7,808 nt of DNA from Saprospiraceae bacterium (GTDB lineage Bacteria > Bacteroidota > Bacteroidia > Chitinophagales > Saprospiraceae), in the NCBI GenBank assembly GCA_013002475.1, contig JABDJM010000061.1, positions 1 through 7,808 on the forward strand. The letters run 5' to 3'. Positions within the stretch are counted from its first letter, which is position 1. Every line of letters starts with the position of its first letter. A model generated the notes under the pieces. That model was not told where the DNA came from, did no database searches, and saw only the letters and a list, made by a program, of their open reading frames with translations. The position numbers and the translations under genes were made by a program. Shown in pieces: positions 729-6,462 of the stretch.

Positions 729-857
729 ATGACCATGAAAGTAAAATCTATCAAGAACCTTCAAGACCTGAAGCTAAACCAAGTTCAAATGACTAGGATT
801 AAGGGTGGAGGAAAATCCAGACCCATTAGACCTAATTCACTGAACTTTGGAGGATAG
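729..857 (+). CDS. Small double-glycine leader peptide (putative RiPP/bacteriocin/pheromone precursor)
   Basis: A 40-residue peptide (ATG 735) or 42 residues (in-frame ATG 729). It has two parts: a Lys/Leu-rich leader ending in LNQVQMTRIKGG and a 15-residue tail with two Arg-Pro pairs that ends LNFGG. Counting back from the first GG, the leader has Leu at -12, Met at -7, Ile at -4, Gly at -2 and -1, the spacing of double-glycine leaders cut by C39 peptidase/ABC exporters. Bacteroidetes carry many such short 'natural product precursor' peptides (for example the TIGR04149 type). No exporter, peptidase or typical maturase sits next to it. It has its own intrinsic terminator 29 nt after the stop, so it is probably transcribed as a single short gene. 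The next gene is a sensor kinase with an extracytoplasmic TPR domain, which raises a signalling role. The reading frame is open upstream to 645, but that part is low-complexity Ser/Leu-rich and has no GG-leader character. Real gene: likely; function: unproven. Confidence 0.66.
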   Translation: MTMKVKSIKNLQDLKLNQVQMTRIKGGGKSRPIRPNSLNFGG

Positions 858-929: not shown

Positions 930-3002
930 TTGAAAAATACCAAAGCCACTAAAGCTATTGCTAAGATCGCCGTCATCCTGGTTGCACTTTTTTTTTCCAA
1001 CGGGGTCTTTGCCAACAATTCCGATCAACTTATTAAGGAGGCCCGCCAGGCAGTAGAAGATGGAATTGAACTCATCCGTAACGGACAAAAGTATGAGACC
1101 GCCAAACTGATTTTTAATCAGGCATTGACCATTGCCGAACAGCAAAAACATCTTTTGCTTGAAATAGAAGCATTGAGAGGTATGGGATTGGCTTTGTATT
1201 TTGAAGGACAATACGAGCAATCGTTTAACATCCTGGATTCCATTGCGACTTTTGTACCGACTAACAAGCCGGGGATTACAGCAAGCATAAACAAGATCCA
1301 GGGAGACAACCTCGTGTTCCTTGGACAATATTCCCGAGCCTACGAGCATCAGCTTAAAGCCCAGGAGTATTACAAAACTGTTGGGAACCAATCCAGGATC
1401 GCCTCAATGACTTTCTCCATCGCCAACAATTTTTTCTATCAGGAACTGTATGACATGGCGAAAAAGGAGTTCGAAAATTCGCTAGCCCTTTATAAAGAAA
1501 TTGATGACACCCGTGGAATTTTTAGTGCGCTGGGTGCCATAGGTAGTTGCAATGAGTACCTTGGAAACTTTGAAGAAGCGATTGCTTATTCAGAGCAATC
1601 CCTGTCCATTGCGTACCAGCTAGGTAACAAGGCTGACATTGCCTGGACACAATACAACATTGGTTCCATCTCTTCAACCGCTGGTGATCTAAAGAAAGCT
1701 CAATTACACCTGGACAAAGCTTTGGCAAGTGCTAAGGAGATTGAAGACATGCCTTTAATCGGCTATACTTTGGAAGCCCTAACGGTAGTAAATCGGCAGC
1801 TTGGACACTACAAAGCTGCTTTGGTTTCTCTGGACCAGAGTTTTCAAATTGCACAATCAAACAATGATAAATCAAACATCCCCGGCCTGCTAAAACTTTA
1901 CTCGGAGTTATACTTTGAGTTGAAAGATTATGAAGCATCCAAGAATTACATAGACAAATACATTGCTCTTAAGGACAGTTTGCGAAGTGAGGAATTGGCC
2001 GCAAACATGGGGAATCTGAAAAAGGATTTTGAGATCAAGGAAATGCAAAAGTTAAAGCAGATTGAACTTTTGAAGAAAGATGCCAAGATCAACAGATTTC
2101 GGATCATCATTGGAGTTTCAATAGCCACCCTGTTTGGCTTGGCTTTGTTTTTCATGTTCATTTTTACAAGAGCGAAAAGCAATCATGTCAAAGAGAAAAA
2201 TGATCTTCTTCTTTCTAAAAATCAAGAGATCCTCCGCCAAAATGAGATCCTGAAATCTTCCAACCAGGATCTTAAACAATATGCCTATGTCATCTCTCAT
2301 GACTTGAAAGAACCCCTAAGAAATATCAGCAGTTTTACCTCTTTGTTAAAACGAAGGCTTAAGGGAAAGCTGGATGAGAACACGCAGGATTACATGGATT
2401 ATATCACCAACGGGGTCAATCAAATGACTTCCTTGCTGACGGATCTATTAGAGTATTCTAAGATCAGGAAAAAGAAACATGAGGTTAATAGAACAGATCC
2501 AAATGAAGTTATCGACCGCGTCATTGAATCAATGCAGTTCAAGATCGAGGATGCCCAGGCGGAAATTGAAGTCCATAATCTTCCACAGGTAGTTATGGAA
2601 GAAAATCACTTCTATCAGGTAATGTTAAATCTGATCTCCAACGGACTGAAGTTTCGCGGAGAAGCCAGGCCCAAAGTCAAGGTAACCTGCAAGCAGGTCG
2701 GCGAGCAATATGTATTCTCGGTATCTGACAATGGTATTGGTATTGATCCAGAATTTCATGATAAAATCTTTGTGGTGTTCCAAAGGCTTCACAACCGGGG
2801 AGAGTTTTCCGGCTCGGGAATTGGCCTTTCTACTTGTAAGAAGATAATAAACGATTACGGGGGACAGATCTGGGTAGACTCAAACCCTGACGAGGGCTCC
2901 ACCTTTCATTTTACCATTCCAAAAACACCAGTTGATTTGGAAGACCCTGTTATGGAACTTCCGGAAATAAATAAGGAGAGCAATTTAGTTTTAAGCGCTT
3001 AG
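930..3002 (+). CDS. TPR sensor histidine kinase, membrane-bound
   Basis: Two-component sensor kinase, 690 residues from TTG 930. In order: signal peptide (about residues 1-28, ending NGVFA), a periplasmic region of helical TPR-like repeats (about 35-350; phrases such as YEQSFNILD, LGNFEEAIAYSEQSLSIA, AGDLKKAQLHLDKAL), a Lys/Glu-rich coiled stretch, one membrane helix (about 391-412), a short cytoplasmic coiled coil, a HisKA domain with the phospho-acceptor His457 in SHDLKEPLRN, and an HATPase domain with N box (NLISNGLKF), G1 (SDNGIGID), F box (IFVVFQRLH) and G2 (GSGIGLSTCKKI). All catalytic boxes are intact. It should autophosphorylate and pass phosphate to a response regulator that is not in this window. 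The open frame reaches GTG 870, but that would put 20 extra residues, including the terminator hairpin, before an otherwise perfect signal peptide; I therefore prefer TTG 930. No clear ribosome binding site supports either. It overlaps the convergent radical SAM gene by 12 nt. Confidence 0.88.
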   Translation: MKNTKATKAIAKIAVILVALFFSNGVFANNSDQLIKEARQAVEDGIELIRNGQKYETAKLIFNQALTIAEQQKHLLLEIEALRGMGLALYFEGQYEQSFNILDSIATFVPTNKPGITASINKIQGDNLVFLGQYSRAYEHQLKAQEYYKTVGNQSRIASMTFSIANNFFYQELYDMAKKEFENSLALYKEIDDTRGIFSALGAIGSCNEYLGNFEEAIAYSEQSLSIAYQLGNKADIAWTQYNIGSISSTAGDLKKAQLHLDKALASAKEIEDMPLIGYTLEALTVVNRQLGHYKAALVSLDQSFQIAQSNNDKSNIPGLLKLYSELYFELKDYEASKNYIDKYIALKDSLRSEELAANMGNLKKDFEIKEMQKLKQIELLKKDAKINRFRIIIGVSIATLFGLALFFMFIFTRAKSNHVKEKNDLLLSKNQEILRQNEILKSSNQDLKQYAYVISHDLKEPLRNISSFTSLLKRRLKGKLDENTQDYMDYITNGVNQMTSLLTDLLEYSKIRKKKHEVNRTDPNEVIDRVIESMQFKIEDAQAEIEVHNLPQVVMEENHFYQVMLNLISNGLKFRGEARPKVKVTCKQVGEQYVFSVSDNGIGIDPEFHDKIFVVFQRLHNRGEFSGSGIGLSTCKKIINDYGGQIWVDSNPDEGSTFHFTIPKTPVDLEDPVMELPEINKESNLVLSA

Positions 3003-4367
3003 GATTTCCTCAGAGAGGGAGGGGTCAAGAGATCTCCTGTGTCCTTCCATGTTTGGAAAATAGTATTGCTCCTTATCATTGATAAAATTTGATCGAACGA
3101 TACCCCTGACAACATAATTCTTAAAGAACCACCATTTACCCCTCTTAAGCTCATCATAAAACAAACGTCCGAGACCATCTTTGTATAATTTGATCGAAGA
3201 TTGGAAGGTGGTCTTTAATTCATGTAGAAGCTCCAGCATTTCTTCCTTTCCGATGTATGGATGCTTCCAGACCAGATTCCTTGAATCATATTTGTGCATG
3301 TCGGGTTCGTCTATGCCATACTTTGAATCGATCTCATCCCATTGTTGGGTATGAGGAAAAGGAGTTAGTACACTTGCCCGGTTGATCTCAAAGCCCAATG
3401 CCTTCAATTTGTAGGCGTCGGCAATGGTTTTTTCACGATCCATATCGGGGTGGCCAATAATTGAAAAGGCGTAACGAAACATTCCCGGTTTGCGGGAAAC
3501 TTTCGCCCACTCTTTAATTTTATCTACTGCCTGTGTTTTGTTCACATCTTTTAGAATTCCTTCATCCATGAATTCTACCCCAATGCCTGGCAGTCGTAGA
3601 CCGCGCTCATACCATTTCTCATAATGTTTTAGGAAGATCTCAACCCTGGACTGTGCGGCCCAGATCATTCCATACTTCTCTAACAATTTTGTTACCCCTT
3701 CATAGTGCTGTGCATGAACACCAAAGGTTTCATCGAAGATTCCGATGTAGCGGATTCCGAGCTCGTGGTAATGTTTCAAAACACGGTCGATGCTTTCCAG
3801 GTTAACGCGGCGCCTGTTTTTAATGAACACCGGGGTTTGACAAAAGCTGCAATGGAATGGGCAACCAAAAGCGGTGTACAATATTCCAAAGGACATGAGA
3901 CGGAATTTCCATATTGCAGTTACCGTGGCTGTCATTGCCGGGTGTTCGATTTTGTCAGGAGCAATGCTATATCCAAAGAGAGCGGACACCTCGTCAAAGC
4001 CATCTCCTATAACGACCCTGTCCACTGCCTCTTCTATGGCAGGAACGGGAGCACCGTAGTTGCCAGCCCAGATTTCTTTGACTCCGTGGGCCCTGGCAAT
4101 CTCGATCATTTCCAGGATCTCTGGAATCTGATATAAGTAAACGCTGAAACCCACTATATCCCAGCCTTCTTTCAACTTCTCGACATAGTCCTCGTACTCC
4201 GGGTATTCCAGGACTTCAAGCTCAGGGATATTTTGCTTCAAAAAACGAAGGCCCGGGCTTACCCGAACCGTGGCCCCGGCCCGGGGAAAGGTTTTCACGT
4301 GCTCTGCAACCATGTCCGTAACGACATTAGGTTTGTTGAATACAGTTGTAAAAAGTACCTTTTTCAT
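2991..4367 (-). CDS. Cobalamin-binding-type radical SAM protein (class B-like)
   Basis: 458-residue radical SAM enzyme, start ATG 4367. The N-terminal part (about residues 1-135) has the alternating strand/helix look of a B12-binding Rossmann domain (MKKVLFTTVF, then WDIVGFSVYLYQIPEILEMIEIA, WAGNYGAP, VVIGDG). The radical SAM core follows, with the 4Fe-4S motif CPFHCSFC (Cys169, Cys173, Cys176) and the usual later strands (YIGIFDETF, GIGVEFMDEG, FSIIGHP). The C-terminal 100 residues are helical and rich in aromatic and basic residues. Enzymes of this layout include methylases and ring-forming enzymes (HpnP, BchE and others); some act on peptides, so the substrate cannot be read from sequence. 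It is the second gene of an operon, 5 nt after the methyltransferase stop, so the two probably act on the same substrate. A frame-extended start at 4400 would overlap the methyltransferase by 28 nt and precede the typical MKKVLF opening, so I reject it. Its 3' end overlaps the kinase gene. Confidence 0.85.
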   Translation of the reverse strand: MKKVLFTTVFNKPNVVTDMVAEHVKTFPRAGATVRVSPGLRFLKQNIPELEVLEYPEYEDYVEKLKEGWDIVGFSVYLYQIPEILEMIEIARAHGVKEIWAGNYGAPVPAIEEAVDRVVIGDGFDEVSALFGYSIAPDKIEHPAMTATVTAIWKFRLMSFGILYTAFGCPFHCSFCQTPVFIKNRRRVNLESIDRVLKHYHELGIRYIGIFDETFGVHAQHYEGVTKLLEKYGMIWAAQSRVEIFLKHYEKWYERGLRLPGIGVEFMDEGILKDVNKTQAVDKIKEWAKVSRKPGMFRYAFSIIGHPDMDREKTIADAYKLKALGFEINRASVLTPFPHTQQWDEIDSKYGIDEPDMHKYDSRNLVWKHPYIGKEEMLELLHELKTTFQSSIKLYKDGLGRLFYDELKRGKWWFFKNYVVRGIVRSNFINDKEQYYFPNMEGHRRSLDPSLSEEILSA

Positions 4368-4372
4368 GATCG

Positions 4373-5224
4373 TTATTTTGGTCTTAGCATAAACCGCCAA
4401 TATTCTATTTTTCGAGTGTTGAATTCATCAAAGCGTCTGCTTCCTTCAACGCCACTAAATTCTGCAAAGGCTTTTCTCCAATATGACGGAATGAAATCTT
4501 TTATGATTTTCATTCTGGAAGAAGAATCAGAACGCAGTGCCTGAACCACGCTGGAAGTTATCTCCTCTTCCTCCTCTAGACTAAAGCCCACCTGTTCCAT
4601 CCAGGTTCGTATTTTGTCGACTTCCCCTTTTTTGATCATGTCTGCAAAAAGAAATTTTCCTCGGGGACTCAACACCCTTTTCACCTCCTCGAAAAATCTT
4701 GGAATACTTCCATAGCAACGGGCAGATTCCACATTTAGCACTATGTCAAACTGATCCTTTTTAAAGGGTAAAGATTCAGCATCACCCTTAACAAAACTCA
4801 GGTTTGAAAAGCTGTGTTTTTGCTGACAAAATCCGATTGCCTCTTTCGAGATATCCATTCCAACATAACTACGGGGGTTCCTTGACCGAACTAACCAGGA
4901 GGCGCCTCCTCCTCGACCGCAGCCAACCTCTAATACCCTGGCACCGGAAAATGAAACAGGCTTTGCCACATGGTCATATAACTGGATCCCATAGCGATTT
5001 GGGAAGTCCTCCTTCTGAAGTTGCAATCCCTGGGACTTTTGCCCGGTAGCCGCATAACCGTAGTTTAAAAAGACGCCGGCGTGGTCCTGATCCCATTTTT
5101 GAATTAGATTATGAGCCCACTTCCAAAGCGGTTTCCGGAGGGGTCGAGGCAGCTCGCAATATTTCTCAACAAGGGCTCTCATATTTGAAAGGTTAACAGA
5201 GGACCTACTAAAAATATCTGTCAT
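4373..5224 (-). CDS. Class I SAM-dependent methyltransferase
   Basis: 283-residue Rossmann-fold methyltransferase. SAM-binding motif I is VLEVGCGRG (residues 97-105), followed by the acidic strand end VGMDIS (121-126), GDAESLPF (147-154) and the post-motif strand DIVLNVESARCYG (160-172), then the usual RVLSPRGKFLFAD turn. The pre-domain segment LNYGY...LQ.ED..R..IQLYDHVA resembles methyltransferases of the phthiotriol/phenolphthiotriol (Rv2952) and sterol C-methyltransferase group, which methylate small or lipid-like molecules on O or C. The substrate here is unknown. The C-terminal third (about 200-283) is helical and charged and could form a substrate lid. It is the first gene of a minus-strand pair with the radical SAM protein, and probably shares its promoter in the repeat-rich region 5225-5490, where I find no convincing Bacteroidetes -7 element on this strand. 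Start ATG 5224 is the first in frame; ATG at residue 15 is an alternative. Confidence 0.87.
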   Translation of the reverse strand: MTDIFSRSSVNLSNMRALVEKYCELPRPLRKPLWKWAHNLIQKWDQDHAGVFLNYGYAATGQKSQGLQLQKEDFPNRYGIQLYDHVAKPVSFSGARVLEVGCGRGGGASWLVRSRNPRSYVGMDISKEAIGFCQQKHSFSNLSFVKGDAESLPFKKDQFDIVLNVESARCYGSIPRFFEEVKRVLSPRGKFLFADMIKKGEVDKIRTWMEQVGFSLEEEEEITSSVVQALRSDSSSRMKIIKDFIPSYWRKAFAEFSGVEGSRRFDEFNTRKIEYWRFMLRPK

Positions 5225-5278: not shown

Positions 5279-5316
5279 GGTCACGGGTCACGGGTCACGG
5301 GTCACAGGTCCCAGGT
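5279..5316. repeat. 7-bp tandem repeat, GGTCACG
   Basis: Three perfect copies of GGTCACG (5279-5299), then GGTCACA (5300-5306), GGTCCCA (5307-5313) and a partial GGT. The decay toward one end, with perfect copies at the other, looks like recent slippage on an older array. It lies 55 nt upstream of the methyltransferase start (minus strand). Confidence 0.9.
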
Positions 5317-5395: not shown

Positions 5396-5459
5396 CGCTC
5401 CTCTGGAGCTTGAAATTCTTTTAACCTTTTACTAGAAAAATTGCGCCCCTCTGGAGCTT
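5396..5459. repeat. Pair of 16-nt direct repeats (CGCYCCTCTGGAGCTT)
   Basis: Copies at 5396-5411 and 5444-5459 differ at one position and are 48 nt apart. Each can fold: copy 1 as GCTCC-TCT-GGAGC, copy 2 together with the following bases as TCTGGAG-CTTAA-CTCCGGA (one G-T pair). Neither is followed by a proper T run for a gene ending nearby, so a terminator role is not supported. Confidence 0.65.
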
Positions 5460-5490: not shown

Positions 5491-5646
5491 CCTATTAGAC
5501 CCACATCCAAAGAACCCTATATGTCCCCATCAATAACCACCCGATAACCAATGGTGCCCCAACAGTGTACCCATTGTAAACCGATCGTGCACCAACCGTA
5601 TACCTATTGAACACCCACTGCACACCTATTGTCCACCCACTATTTT
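5491..5646. repeat. Degenerate 11-bp-period array with invariant CC
   Basis: From 5515 to 5646 there are 12 back-to-back units of exactly 11 bp, each starting CC, with consensus CCnAYnGTnnA. Across the 12 units CC is 12/12, A at position 4 is 10/12, pyrimidine at position 5 is 11/12, G at position 7 is 9/12, T at position 8 is 8/12 and A at position 11 is 9/12. Examples: CCAACAGTGTA (5559), CCGATCGTGCA (5581), CCTATTGTCCA (5625). Two related units with altered length extend it left to 5491. Units 9-10 and 11-12 resemble each other as 22-bp pairs. It ends 25 nt before the ku start codon. Function unknown. Confidence 0.8.
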
Positions 5647-5648
5647 TA
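5641..5648 (+). promoter_or_regulatory. Weak candidate ku -7 element (TATTTTTA)
   Basis: TATTTTTA matches the Bacteroidetes -7 consensus TAnnTTTG except at the last base and sits 23 nt before the ku ATG, just where the 11-bp array loses its pattern. No TTG-type -33 element is found at the expected distance. Weak. Confidence 0.25.
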
Positions 5649-5670
5649 TCTTCACGAAAAATAAAGTCTT

Positions 5671-6462
5671 ATGAGATCCATATGGAAAGGTCATATTCGA
5701 TTTTCCCTGGTAACCATCCCCATACAAGTATTTAGCGCCGTTGAATCCAAAGGCAACATCAGTTTCCGCCAGATACATAAAGAAGACAATGGAAGAGTGG
5801 GTTATAAAAAGGTATGCAAGGAATGTGAGCAAACCCTGTCGAAAGGCGATATCGTGAAAGGCTTCGAATACGAACCGGATCAGTATGTGCTACTTTCTGA
5901 GGACGAGCTCGATGCGGTCCGGCTGGAAAGTACCCGGGCCATTGATATCGAAGCCTTTGTGAATATAGACGAAGTCCACCCCAGCCGCTTCGAAGCAGTT
6001 TATTATCTGGGCCCAAGCGCTAAAGCTGCTATCGACACCTTCAGCCTCTTTTGCGAAACGCTCCGCTCAACCGGGAAAGCAGGTATCGGACGCCTCATCC
6101 TGAGGGATCGAGAGGATGTAGTTTTGATAACGCCTCATAAGAATGCACTTATCATGTACAAGCTCCGCTATCCATATGAGATTCGATCTGTGGAAGATGT
6201 ACCTGACCTTAAGGAAGGAGCTGTTGAAGAATCACAACTTAAGCTGGCAAAAACGCTGGTTGATAGTTTGAGCATGCCTTTTGCCAAAGTTGATTTCGAA
6301 GACCGCTATCGTGATGCACTGATGGAGTTGGTGGAACAAAAGATCGCCGGAAAAGAAATTGTCAAGATCACCGAAGAAGGTGAAGAGGAAGAAGTGGTGG
6401 ACATCATGGATGCCCTGAAGAAAAGTATTGAAGAAGCCAAAAAGCTTAAGAAGGCCGGCTGA
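5671..6462 (+). CDS. ku: Ku, DNA end-binding protein of non-homologous end joining
   Basis: 263-residue bacterial Ku, the usual length for the family. It forms a homodimeric ring that threads onto double-strand DNA ends and recruits LigD. Family features are clear from the first residues: MRSIWKGHIRFSLVTIPIQVF, the RQIHKEDNGRVGYKKVCKEC segment (Cys49, Cys52), DIVKGFEYEPDQYVLLSEDEL, then IDIEAFVNIDEVHP, YYLGPSAKAA and the helical region with QKIAGKEI. The C-terminus is a Lys/Glu-rich helix ending KKLKKAG, short compared with the long basic tails of some Ku proteins. Start ATG 5671 gives the canonical N-terminus. The stop overlaps the next gene's ATG by one base (TGATG), so translation is coupled to the EEP nuclease. 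The ligase end at 1-545 is the likely partner. Confidence 0.96.
   Translation: MRSIWKGHIRFSLVTIPIQVFSAVESKGNISFRQIHKEDNGRVGYKKVCKECEQTLSKGDIVKGFEYEPDQYVLLSEDELDAVRLESTRAIDIEAFVNIDEVHPSRFEAVYYLGPSAKAAIDTFSLFCETLRSTGKAGIGRLILRDREDVVLITPHKNALIMYKLRYPYEIRSVEDVPDLKEGAVEESQLKLAKTLVDSLSMPFAKVDFEDRYRDALMELVEQKIAGKEIVKITEEGEEEEVVDIMDALKKSIEEAKKLKKAG

Follow-up and report, generated by a model that had tools for sequence, protein, structure and literature searches.

Phase-locked 11-bp repeat arrays in gene gaps of a Saprospiraceae genome, one of them upstream of ku

The window analysed here is the whole of a 7,808-base contig (C581) of the Saprospiraceae genome bin G000, which comprises 2.84 Mb in 593 contigs and is 82% complete. 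It carries the C-terminal part of an ATP-dependent DNA ligase gene, a TPR histidine kinase gene, ku, an endonuclease/exonuclease/phosphatase gene and the start of a class I aminoacyl-tRNA synthetase gene; a radical SAM gene and a methyltransferase gene lie on the minus strand. The histidine kinase gene adjoins ku in the two same-genus stretches that we read, where the radical SAM and methyltransferase genes were not found, so that in this lineage a block including a repeat-rich gap separates the kinase gene from ku. The gap extends from the methyltransferase start (5224) to ku (5671) and holds a row of the heptamer GGTCACG, two copies of a 16-mer and an array of 11-bp units (Table 1). Elsewhere in the window, a small ORF of 40 amino acids (735-857, plus strand), read by eye, carries a leader-like LNQVQMTRIKGG motif, of a kind typical of Bacteroidota secreted peptides; 3′ of it, near 884-913, lies a terminator-like hairpin with a T run, and then comes the TPR histidine kinase gene.

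Table 1. Positions of the features discussed, in the window or, where a contig is named, elsewhere in the G000 bin.
Feature	Position	Strand	Remarks
Radical SAM and methyltransferase genes	2991..5224	-	Between histidine kinase gene and ku
GGTCACG 7-bp tandem array	5279..5316	+	Same intergenic region as 11-bp array; Tandem Repeats Finder
16-mer CGCTCCTCTGGAGCTT, first copy	5396..5411	+	Same intergenic region as 11-bp array
16-mer CGCTCCTCTGGAGCTT, second copy (94%)	5444..5459	+	Same intergenic region as 11-bp array
Array of 12 in-phase 11-bp units, skeleton ACCNAYNGTNN	5515..5646	+	First units weaker
Clearest 11 units of the array	5526..5646	+	Used for skeleton and free-position counts
Candidate -7 box TATTTTTA	5641-5648	+	Predicted; 5/6 matches
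Candidate -7 box TATCTTCA	5647-5654	+	Predicted; 4/6 matches; overlaps TATTTTTA
ku (PF02735)	5671..6462	+	Gene downstream of 11-bp array
Array before ribH	C11:2794-2885		Unit of ACCNAYNGTNN type
Array about 210 bp before trpE	C133:3540-3597	-	Near contig end; ACCNAYNGTNN type
Array between moeA and a gene with a T9SS sorting tail	C269:5837-5890		Unit nearer GTTNAAC plus four bases
Array between trpB and trpA	C572, about 2230-2295		Reaches last trpB codons; unit nearer GTTNAAC plus four bases
Weaker arrays	C133 (3668), C64, C475

The first-pass annotation had described 12 consecutive 11-bp units with an invariant CC and had named shuffled sequence as the yardstick for them. Measured against 5000 dinucleotide-preserving shuffles, the description holds. 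Identity at lag 11 in 5491-5646 was 0.524 (shuffle mean 0.279, sd 0.037, maximum 0.434), it was 0.515 at lag 22 and 0.520 at lag 33, and the remaining lags between 3 and 39 gave 0.16-0.32. CC occupied one 11-bp phase 12 times out of 12, compared with a mean of 4.8 and a maximum of 9 in the shuffles. In the rest of the window the best count of CC at 12 positions spaced 11 apart was 4, and 156-bp stretches more than 156 bases from the array reached a lag-11 identity of 0.345 at best. The start at 5491 was about two units too early: the CC units run from 5515 to 5646, and in the rows at 5493 and 5504 the place of CC is taken by TA and CA. With Tandem Repeats Finder the array went undetected, also at a score of 30.

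We write the skeleton as ACCNAYNGTNN, where CC opens the unit and the leading A is the last base of the preceding one. In 18 units, 11 from the ku array (from 5526) and 7 from the array before ribH, CC was present in 18, A at position 4 in 17, Y at position 5 in 18, G at position 7 in 14 and A at position 11 in 15; the unit at 5515, which has CC and no A at position 4, was left out of this count, as were the two units at the start of the ribH array, of which one has no CC. The earlier argument that stop codons exclude a coding repeat applies to five of the frames; the sixth, on the minus strand, runs through the array without interruption from one stop (5671) to the next (5497) and is not otherwise supported as a gene. 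The CC steps had also been placed on nearly the same face of the helix. As 11 bp is half a base more than one turn of B-DNA, this phasing is only approximate, and would drift by about half a turn over 12 units.

Copies were found elsewhere in the genome, which bears out the reading of the array as a dispersed periodic repeat. A 25-base two-unit pattern, allowing two mismatches or fewer, matched G000 16 times and its reversed control 3 times; the top count in the other 59 genomes was 8, where the genome's own control gave 7. With a 35-base pattern there were 15 matches in G000 and none for the control, and 8 of 298 genomes of the order had any match. At least five arrays of phase-locked 11-bp units thus lie in gene gaps of G000, with ACCNAYNGTNN common to those on C581, C11 and C133. 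The unit on C572, GTTNAAC plus four bases, which is also that of the G115 genome described below, is similar to the GTNNACC plus four bases of ku and not identical to it. The ATG of ribH (2906) was assigned by eye, a longer open frame crossing the array and the enzyme domain starting at residue 95 of it; trpB on C572 is named by position, its Pfam match being PALP only. GC content was 0.40-0.46 in the array contigs and 0.42-0.45 in the readable sample contigs, and contamination of the bin was rejected as the source of the arrays on this comparison. Six of the 20 G000 contigs sampled, all shorter than 3 kb, read as N; the 106,262-base sample therefore holds about 91.6 kb of letters, and searches of this bin may miss arrays there.

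At ku itself the array has no counterpart. At 18 other ku loci (17 distinct), the 450 bp preceding the gene gave best lag-11 identities of 0.31-0.44, compared with 0.62 in the window, and each of the 18 fell below the maximum of its own 60 shuffles; within these 450 bp the array was found at none of the 17 other distinct loci, both same-genus genomes included. Judged from the sequences, the array is not a ku feature. The first-pass annotation had staked its interpretation on traces of the period in relatives: this goes against it at ku and does not touch the family of arrays in the genome. Its proposal of a dedicated regulator of the ku operon is not supported, given the absence from the 17 loci and the position of other arrays beside unrelated genes, in an operon gap and between convergent genes.

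We examined the wider distribution with a profile (R1) derived from 36-base stretches, ten in all (seven from G000, two from G115, one from G001), so that some of its matches in these three genomes coincide with training places. Under strict filters, and with 17 candidates scored in each genome, matches at E 0.003 or less were obtained at 6 places in G000, 12 in G115, 1 in G592 and 1 in G483 and at none in the other 391 of 395 genomes of the phylum; only G000 and G115 had more than one. The other strong place among 60 relatives, G001 C38:30742, is itself a training place, with four units between a convergent glucosaminidase gene and pdxA. G115, a genome of 2.0 Mb, belongs to another family of the order. 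In a 400-kb sample of it, chosen to include matches and with 91% of its length in ORFs, 10 of 12 lag-11 peaks were intergenic by a longest-ORF rule (two of the peaks being one array), as were 33 of 41 lag-7 peaks; there were 6 peaks at lag 8, 3 at lag 14 and none at lags 10 and 13. The 280 kb of G115 C1:1-300k, picked regardless of matches, gave 24 lag-7 peaks and no lag-11 peak, or two weak lag-11 stretches (L223, L227) at a laxer cut-off of 0.56, and the strong 11-bp matches lie at C1:312-340k and on C8, C2 and C6. No lag-11 peak (identity 0.62 over four units) was seen in 352 kb of G001 or in the G000 sample outside the pattern matches. The 11-bp arrays are therefore few, and in G115 they are clustered. 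Many intergenic degenerate 7-bp rows (GGACATT, TTTAGGG and others) were seen in G115 C1:1-300000.

Turnover of the arrays is fast, as the gap between trpB and trpA shows: it spans 79 bp in G000, against 13 bp in G001 and 2 bp in both G011 and G019, and in G012 there is no gap but an overlap of 14 bases. An 11-bp array precedes mqnC in G115; in G259, whose MqnC is 95% identical to that of G115, we saw there, by eye, a 7-bp row of CTTCATC type together with an inverted counterpart, and in G273, at this single locus and again by eye, neither an 11-bp nor a 7-bp row.

The closest known kind that we found is the arrays of the heptamer TAACTGA, intergenic direct repeats reported in Beggiatoaceae, Cyanobacteria and five Bacteroidetes (MacGregor, 2015; PMC4679880), of which the 11-bp arrays would be a variant with another unit length and half-free units. 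The TAACTGA arrays share with those of G000 short direct repeats, a mostly intergenic position, often just before start codons of unrelated genes, a sporadic, strain-specific occurrence with absence from the same gap of close relatives in the cases described, and sometimes other heptamer arrays beside them (PMC4679880). The ku array is likewise intergenic, sporadic and strain-specific and lacks the exact period-7 TAACTGA heptamer; the heptamer is described there as nearly invariant, whereas the G000 unit has 11 bp, about half of them free, and a skeleton common to several loci. The 7-bp arrays of G115 and the GGTCACG row of the window look like the TAACTGA sort. In the open-licence literature we found no paper on 11-bp intergenic or Bacteroidetes-promoter direct repeat arrays.

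Repeat arrays are usually put down to copying errors. The units of the ku array were compared at six free and five skeleton positions, a split made on the same data. Up to five units apart, identity was 0.31-0.37 at the free positions (0.35 between neighbours) and 0.83-0.88 at the skeleton positions; six to eight units apart, where few pairs are left, the ranges were 0.11-0.38 and 0.73-0.80. At free positions adjacent units match no better than distant ones, and recent growth by slippage, the expanding repeat of the first-pass annotation, is unsupported. Resemblance between units was as high across distant loci as inside a single array: mean identity in register was 0.552 within C581, 0.579 between C581 and C11 and 0.601 between C581 and C133, compared with 0.10-0.34 when the register was shifted or the opposite strand taken. 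The same was seen in G115, where 67 units from 11 arrays, kept after a filter that required at least 4 of 6 core letters, had free-position identities of 0.388 within and 0.385 between arrays and skeleton identities of 0.832 and 0.841. Simulated uniform star decay reached the observed unevenness among positions in a fraction of 0.001 of 2000 runs for C581 and, more weakly, 0.02 for C11 (uniform rates, C133 left aside). Uniform decay of identical copies is rejected as the source of the pattern, and the earlier observation that period and key bases are kept and the rest varies stands, explained neither by shuffled sequence nor by such decay. With identity across loci equal to that within arrays and decay rejected, the units resemble repeated realisations of one genome-wide consensus and not local copies, and the fixed skeleton seems to be recognised genome-wide.

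A neutral minisatellite, in which an 11-bp unit was multiplied by old slippage and then decayed, the kept letters being due to chance or mutational bias, is unlikely on these data. It would account for the sporadic occurrence, for the absence at ku in relatives and for an operon gap that is array-filled in one lineage only, but not easily for CC in 12 of 12 units beside free positions near background, nor for units of different loci as alike as those of one array. The near-identical units with closest neighbours that mark an ordinary minisatellite or VNTR were not found in the array.

The combination of a skeleton fixed across loci, two of its letters invariant, with free positions near background, neighbours that show no closer kinship and a location in gene gaps points instead to recognition of each 11-bp unit in trans. 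We tentatively favour, at somewhat less than an even chance, the view that the units at ku are head-to-tail sites of a putative sequence-specific DNA-binding protein. Such a protein would line up along the row, by analogy with Streptomyces PhoP on 11-nt units (PMC7866108), probably cooperatively, and would cover the stretch immediately 5′ of the ku promoter, where the row ends at a predicted -7 box. The skeleton would then be kept because the protein reads it, and the arrays would form a fast-turnover class of Bacteroidota intergenic short-period arrays, of 7 and 11 bp, gained and lost at gene gaps. If the array acts on ku at all, by shielding its promoter or by activating locally, this would be a recent trait of the lineage and not a conserved control of this gene. 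If a protein does read the arrays, they would provide a testable class of rapidly changing regulatory or nucleoid-organising sites in Bacteroidota; if none does, they would be a clean case of sequence constraint without known cause. A bolder extension, which we regard as rather doubtful, is that some Bacteroidota possess an intergenic address system made of rows of 7- or 11-bp units, with a lineage-specific skeleton and a DNA-binding protein that co-evolves with them; between sister species the units at a given gap would be exchanged for others of different sequence and the layout kept, much like satellite DNA at eukaryotic centromeres.

It is rather unlikely that the arrays stem from a non-autonomous mobile or REP/BIME-like repeat that a transposase or an RNA-based process inserts into gene gaps, with a one-armed copy in the window. 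The arrays are dispersed, mostly intergenic and lineage-specific, and those of G115 have two inverted arms, mostly with GTTGAAC units to the left and GTTCAAC units to the right of a centre that reads GTTTAGC in 4 of 11. Eight G115 arrays and the C572 array fold as hairpins (z -2.5 to -6.2), unlike the ku array, whose plus strand does not fold (z -0.01) and whose minus strand does so weakly (z -2.28); the imperfect palindrome of REP/BIME elements is thus not seen in the window, and beyond the skeleton the arrays are not copies of each other. One arm pair in G115 brackets a gene for a 23S rRNA intervening-sequence protein (PF05635), and intergenic genes of this kind often lie between inverted repeats, 11 of 21 scoring above all 84 mismatched-flank controls. 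GTTNAAC-unit rows were found at 1 of 25 PF05635 loci, however, and no PF05635 gene was found in the G000 contigs examined, and this association was rejected as an explanation for the window. REPs with RAYT transposases resemble these arrays in being extragenic, dispersed and species-specific, and those of G115 also in their two orientations, but REPs are palindromes with usually more than 100 copies per genome (PMC2817692) and the window array is direct, one of about five clear arrays in G000. The BrickBuilt MITE of Porphyromonas gingivalis is likewise a dispersed intergenic tandem repeat of a Bacteroidota genome; its minisatellite units are of 23 nt and lie within a defined element with leader and tail (PMC4596501), as against 11 bp here. 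A conserved RNA hairpin was also considered and rejected. In ten G115 arrays, C572 being left out, pairing of the arms within an array gave -6.0 to -36.7 kcal/mol and cross-pairing gave row means of -16.3 to -32.9, and covariation was unsupportive; the arms pair no better within than between arrays, so the RNA hairpin need not be what is kept.

Among the known 11-bp layouts are ParR-type centromeres, which are iterons beside parM/parR genes on plasmids; this candidate was rejected, the neighbours in the window being the ligase, ku and aminoacyl-tRNA synthetase genes. An operator for an OmpR/PhoB-family response regulator, controlling ku, ribH, trp and other genes through 11-nt direct repeat units, is quite improbable. 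Its GTNNACC presumably resembles the Streptomyces PhoP core, and we counted this in its favour. Unit length and head-to-tail layout would fit as well: the passages on Streptomyces PHO boxes describe 11-nt head-to-tail units in rows of several, conserved beside less conserved ones (PMC7866108). In these passages, however, two to six units mark phosphate-controlled promoters (PMC7866108), whereas the ku array has 12 units before a gene without known phosphate control. The conservation of regulon promoters among relatives expected of such operators was not found: the arrays are not conserved at orthologous places, and the genes linked to them have no evident common theme. The copies in the trpB-trpA operon gap and, in G001, between convergent genes, odd places for promoter operators, argue against so simple a role and are more in keeping with a general intergenic docking site or with a repeat family that has dynamics of its own.

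The same copy between convergent genes weighs against a very improbable alternative, a 5′-leader RNA element bound by an RNA-binding protein and controlling translation. Such a role has been proposed for TAACTGA repeats (PMC4679880), and three G000 arrays (at ku, ribH and the C269 gene) end about 13-25 bp before the ATG. Matches to the Bacteroidota -7 box, TAnnTTTG (PMC9723704), are nevertheless predicted between array and ATG at ku, ribH and the C269 gene and at mqnC and fumC of G115, and would leave these arrays untranscribed. Boxes with at least 5 of 6 matches stand behind 5 of 7 array-preceded gene starts; 2 of the 4 array-free genes of the window score equally, and the box was rejected as a hallmark of arrays.

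Descent from phage replication-origin iterons, as relics or decoys, is scarcely credible for the ku array: three AACNAYNGTTN units in a row occur in 60 viral stretches (10 for the reversed pattern), 51 of them within a stop-free stretch of at least 120 codons, and two translated ORFs look like phage replication proteins, but the ku-type ACCNAYNGTNN is not enriched in viral contigs (20, compared with at least 120 for the reversed pattern) and the ku array lies between cellular genes, those for the methyltransferase and Ku, outside any initiator coding sequence. This origin was rejected on the ACC-type matches.

Two minor leads emerged from these comparisons. The first concerns the 23S intervening-sequence genes. 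One of the two PF05635 genes of G115 lies between inverted 11-bp arms, beside sugar-nucleotide genes (C8; L239 15500-16100), and the other, by eye, between different inverted repeats. In the set of 25 loci (L242-L266) four others show weak lag-11 peaks of 0.58-0.61; the flank test above covered 21 of the 25, two being absent from the list and two too short. A search of the open-licence literature for 23S intervening sequences with a four helix bundle returned no paper, and neither did one for DUF1376 with iterons. The second lead is viral. Replication-protein-like ORFs (L272 2649-3362, L291 8092-8868 and others), of two families, Lin1244_N and DUF1376 (two were translated), contain in-frame rows of the 11-bp unit AACGACCGTTN, followed by AT-rich sequence or short repeats. 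From sequence, these rows look like an origin inside the initiator gene, and the motif ST[TA]V[QE] was found in 44 of the 51 viral stretches, among the 60, that have the row in a stop-free stretch of at least 120 codons.
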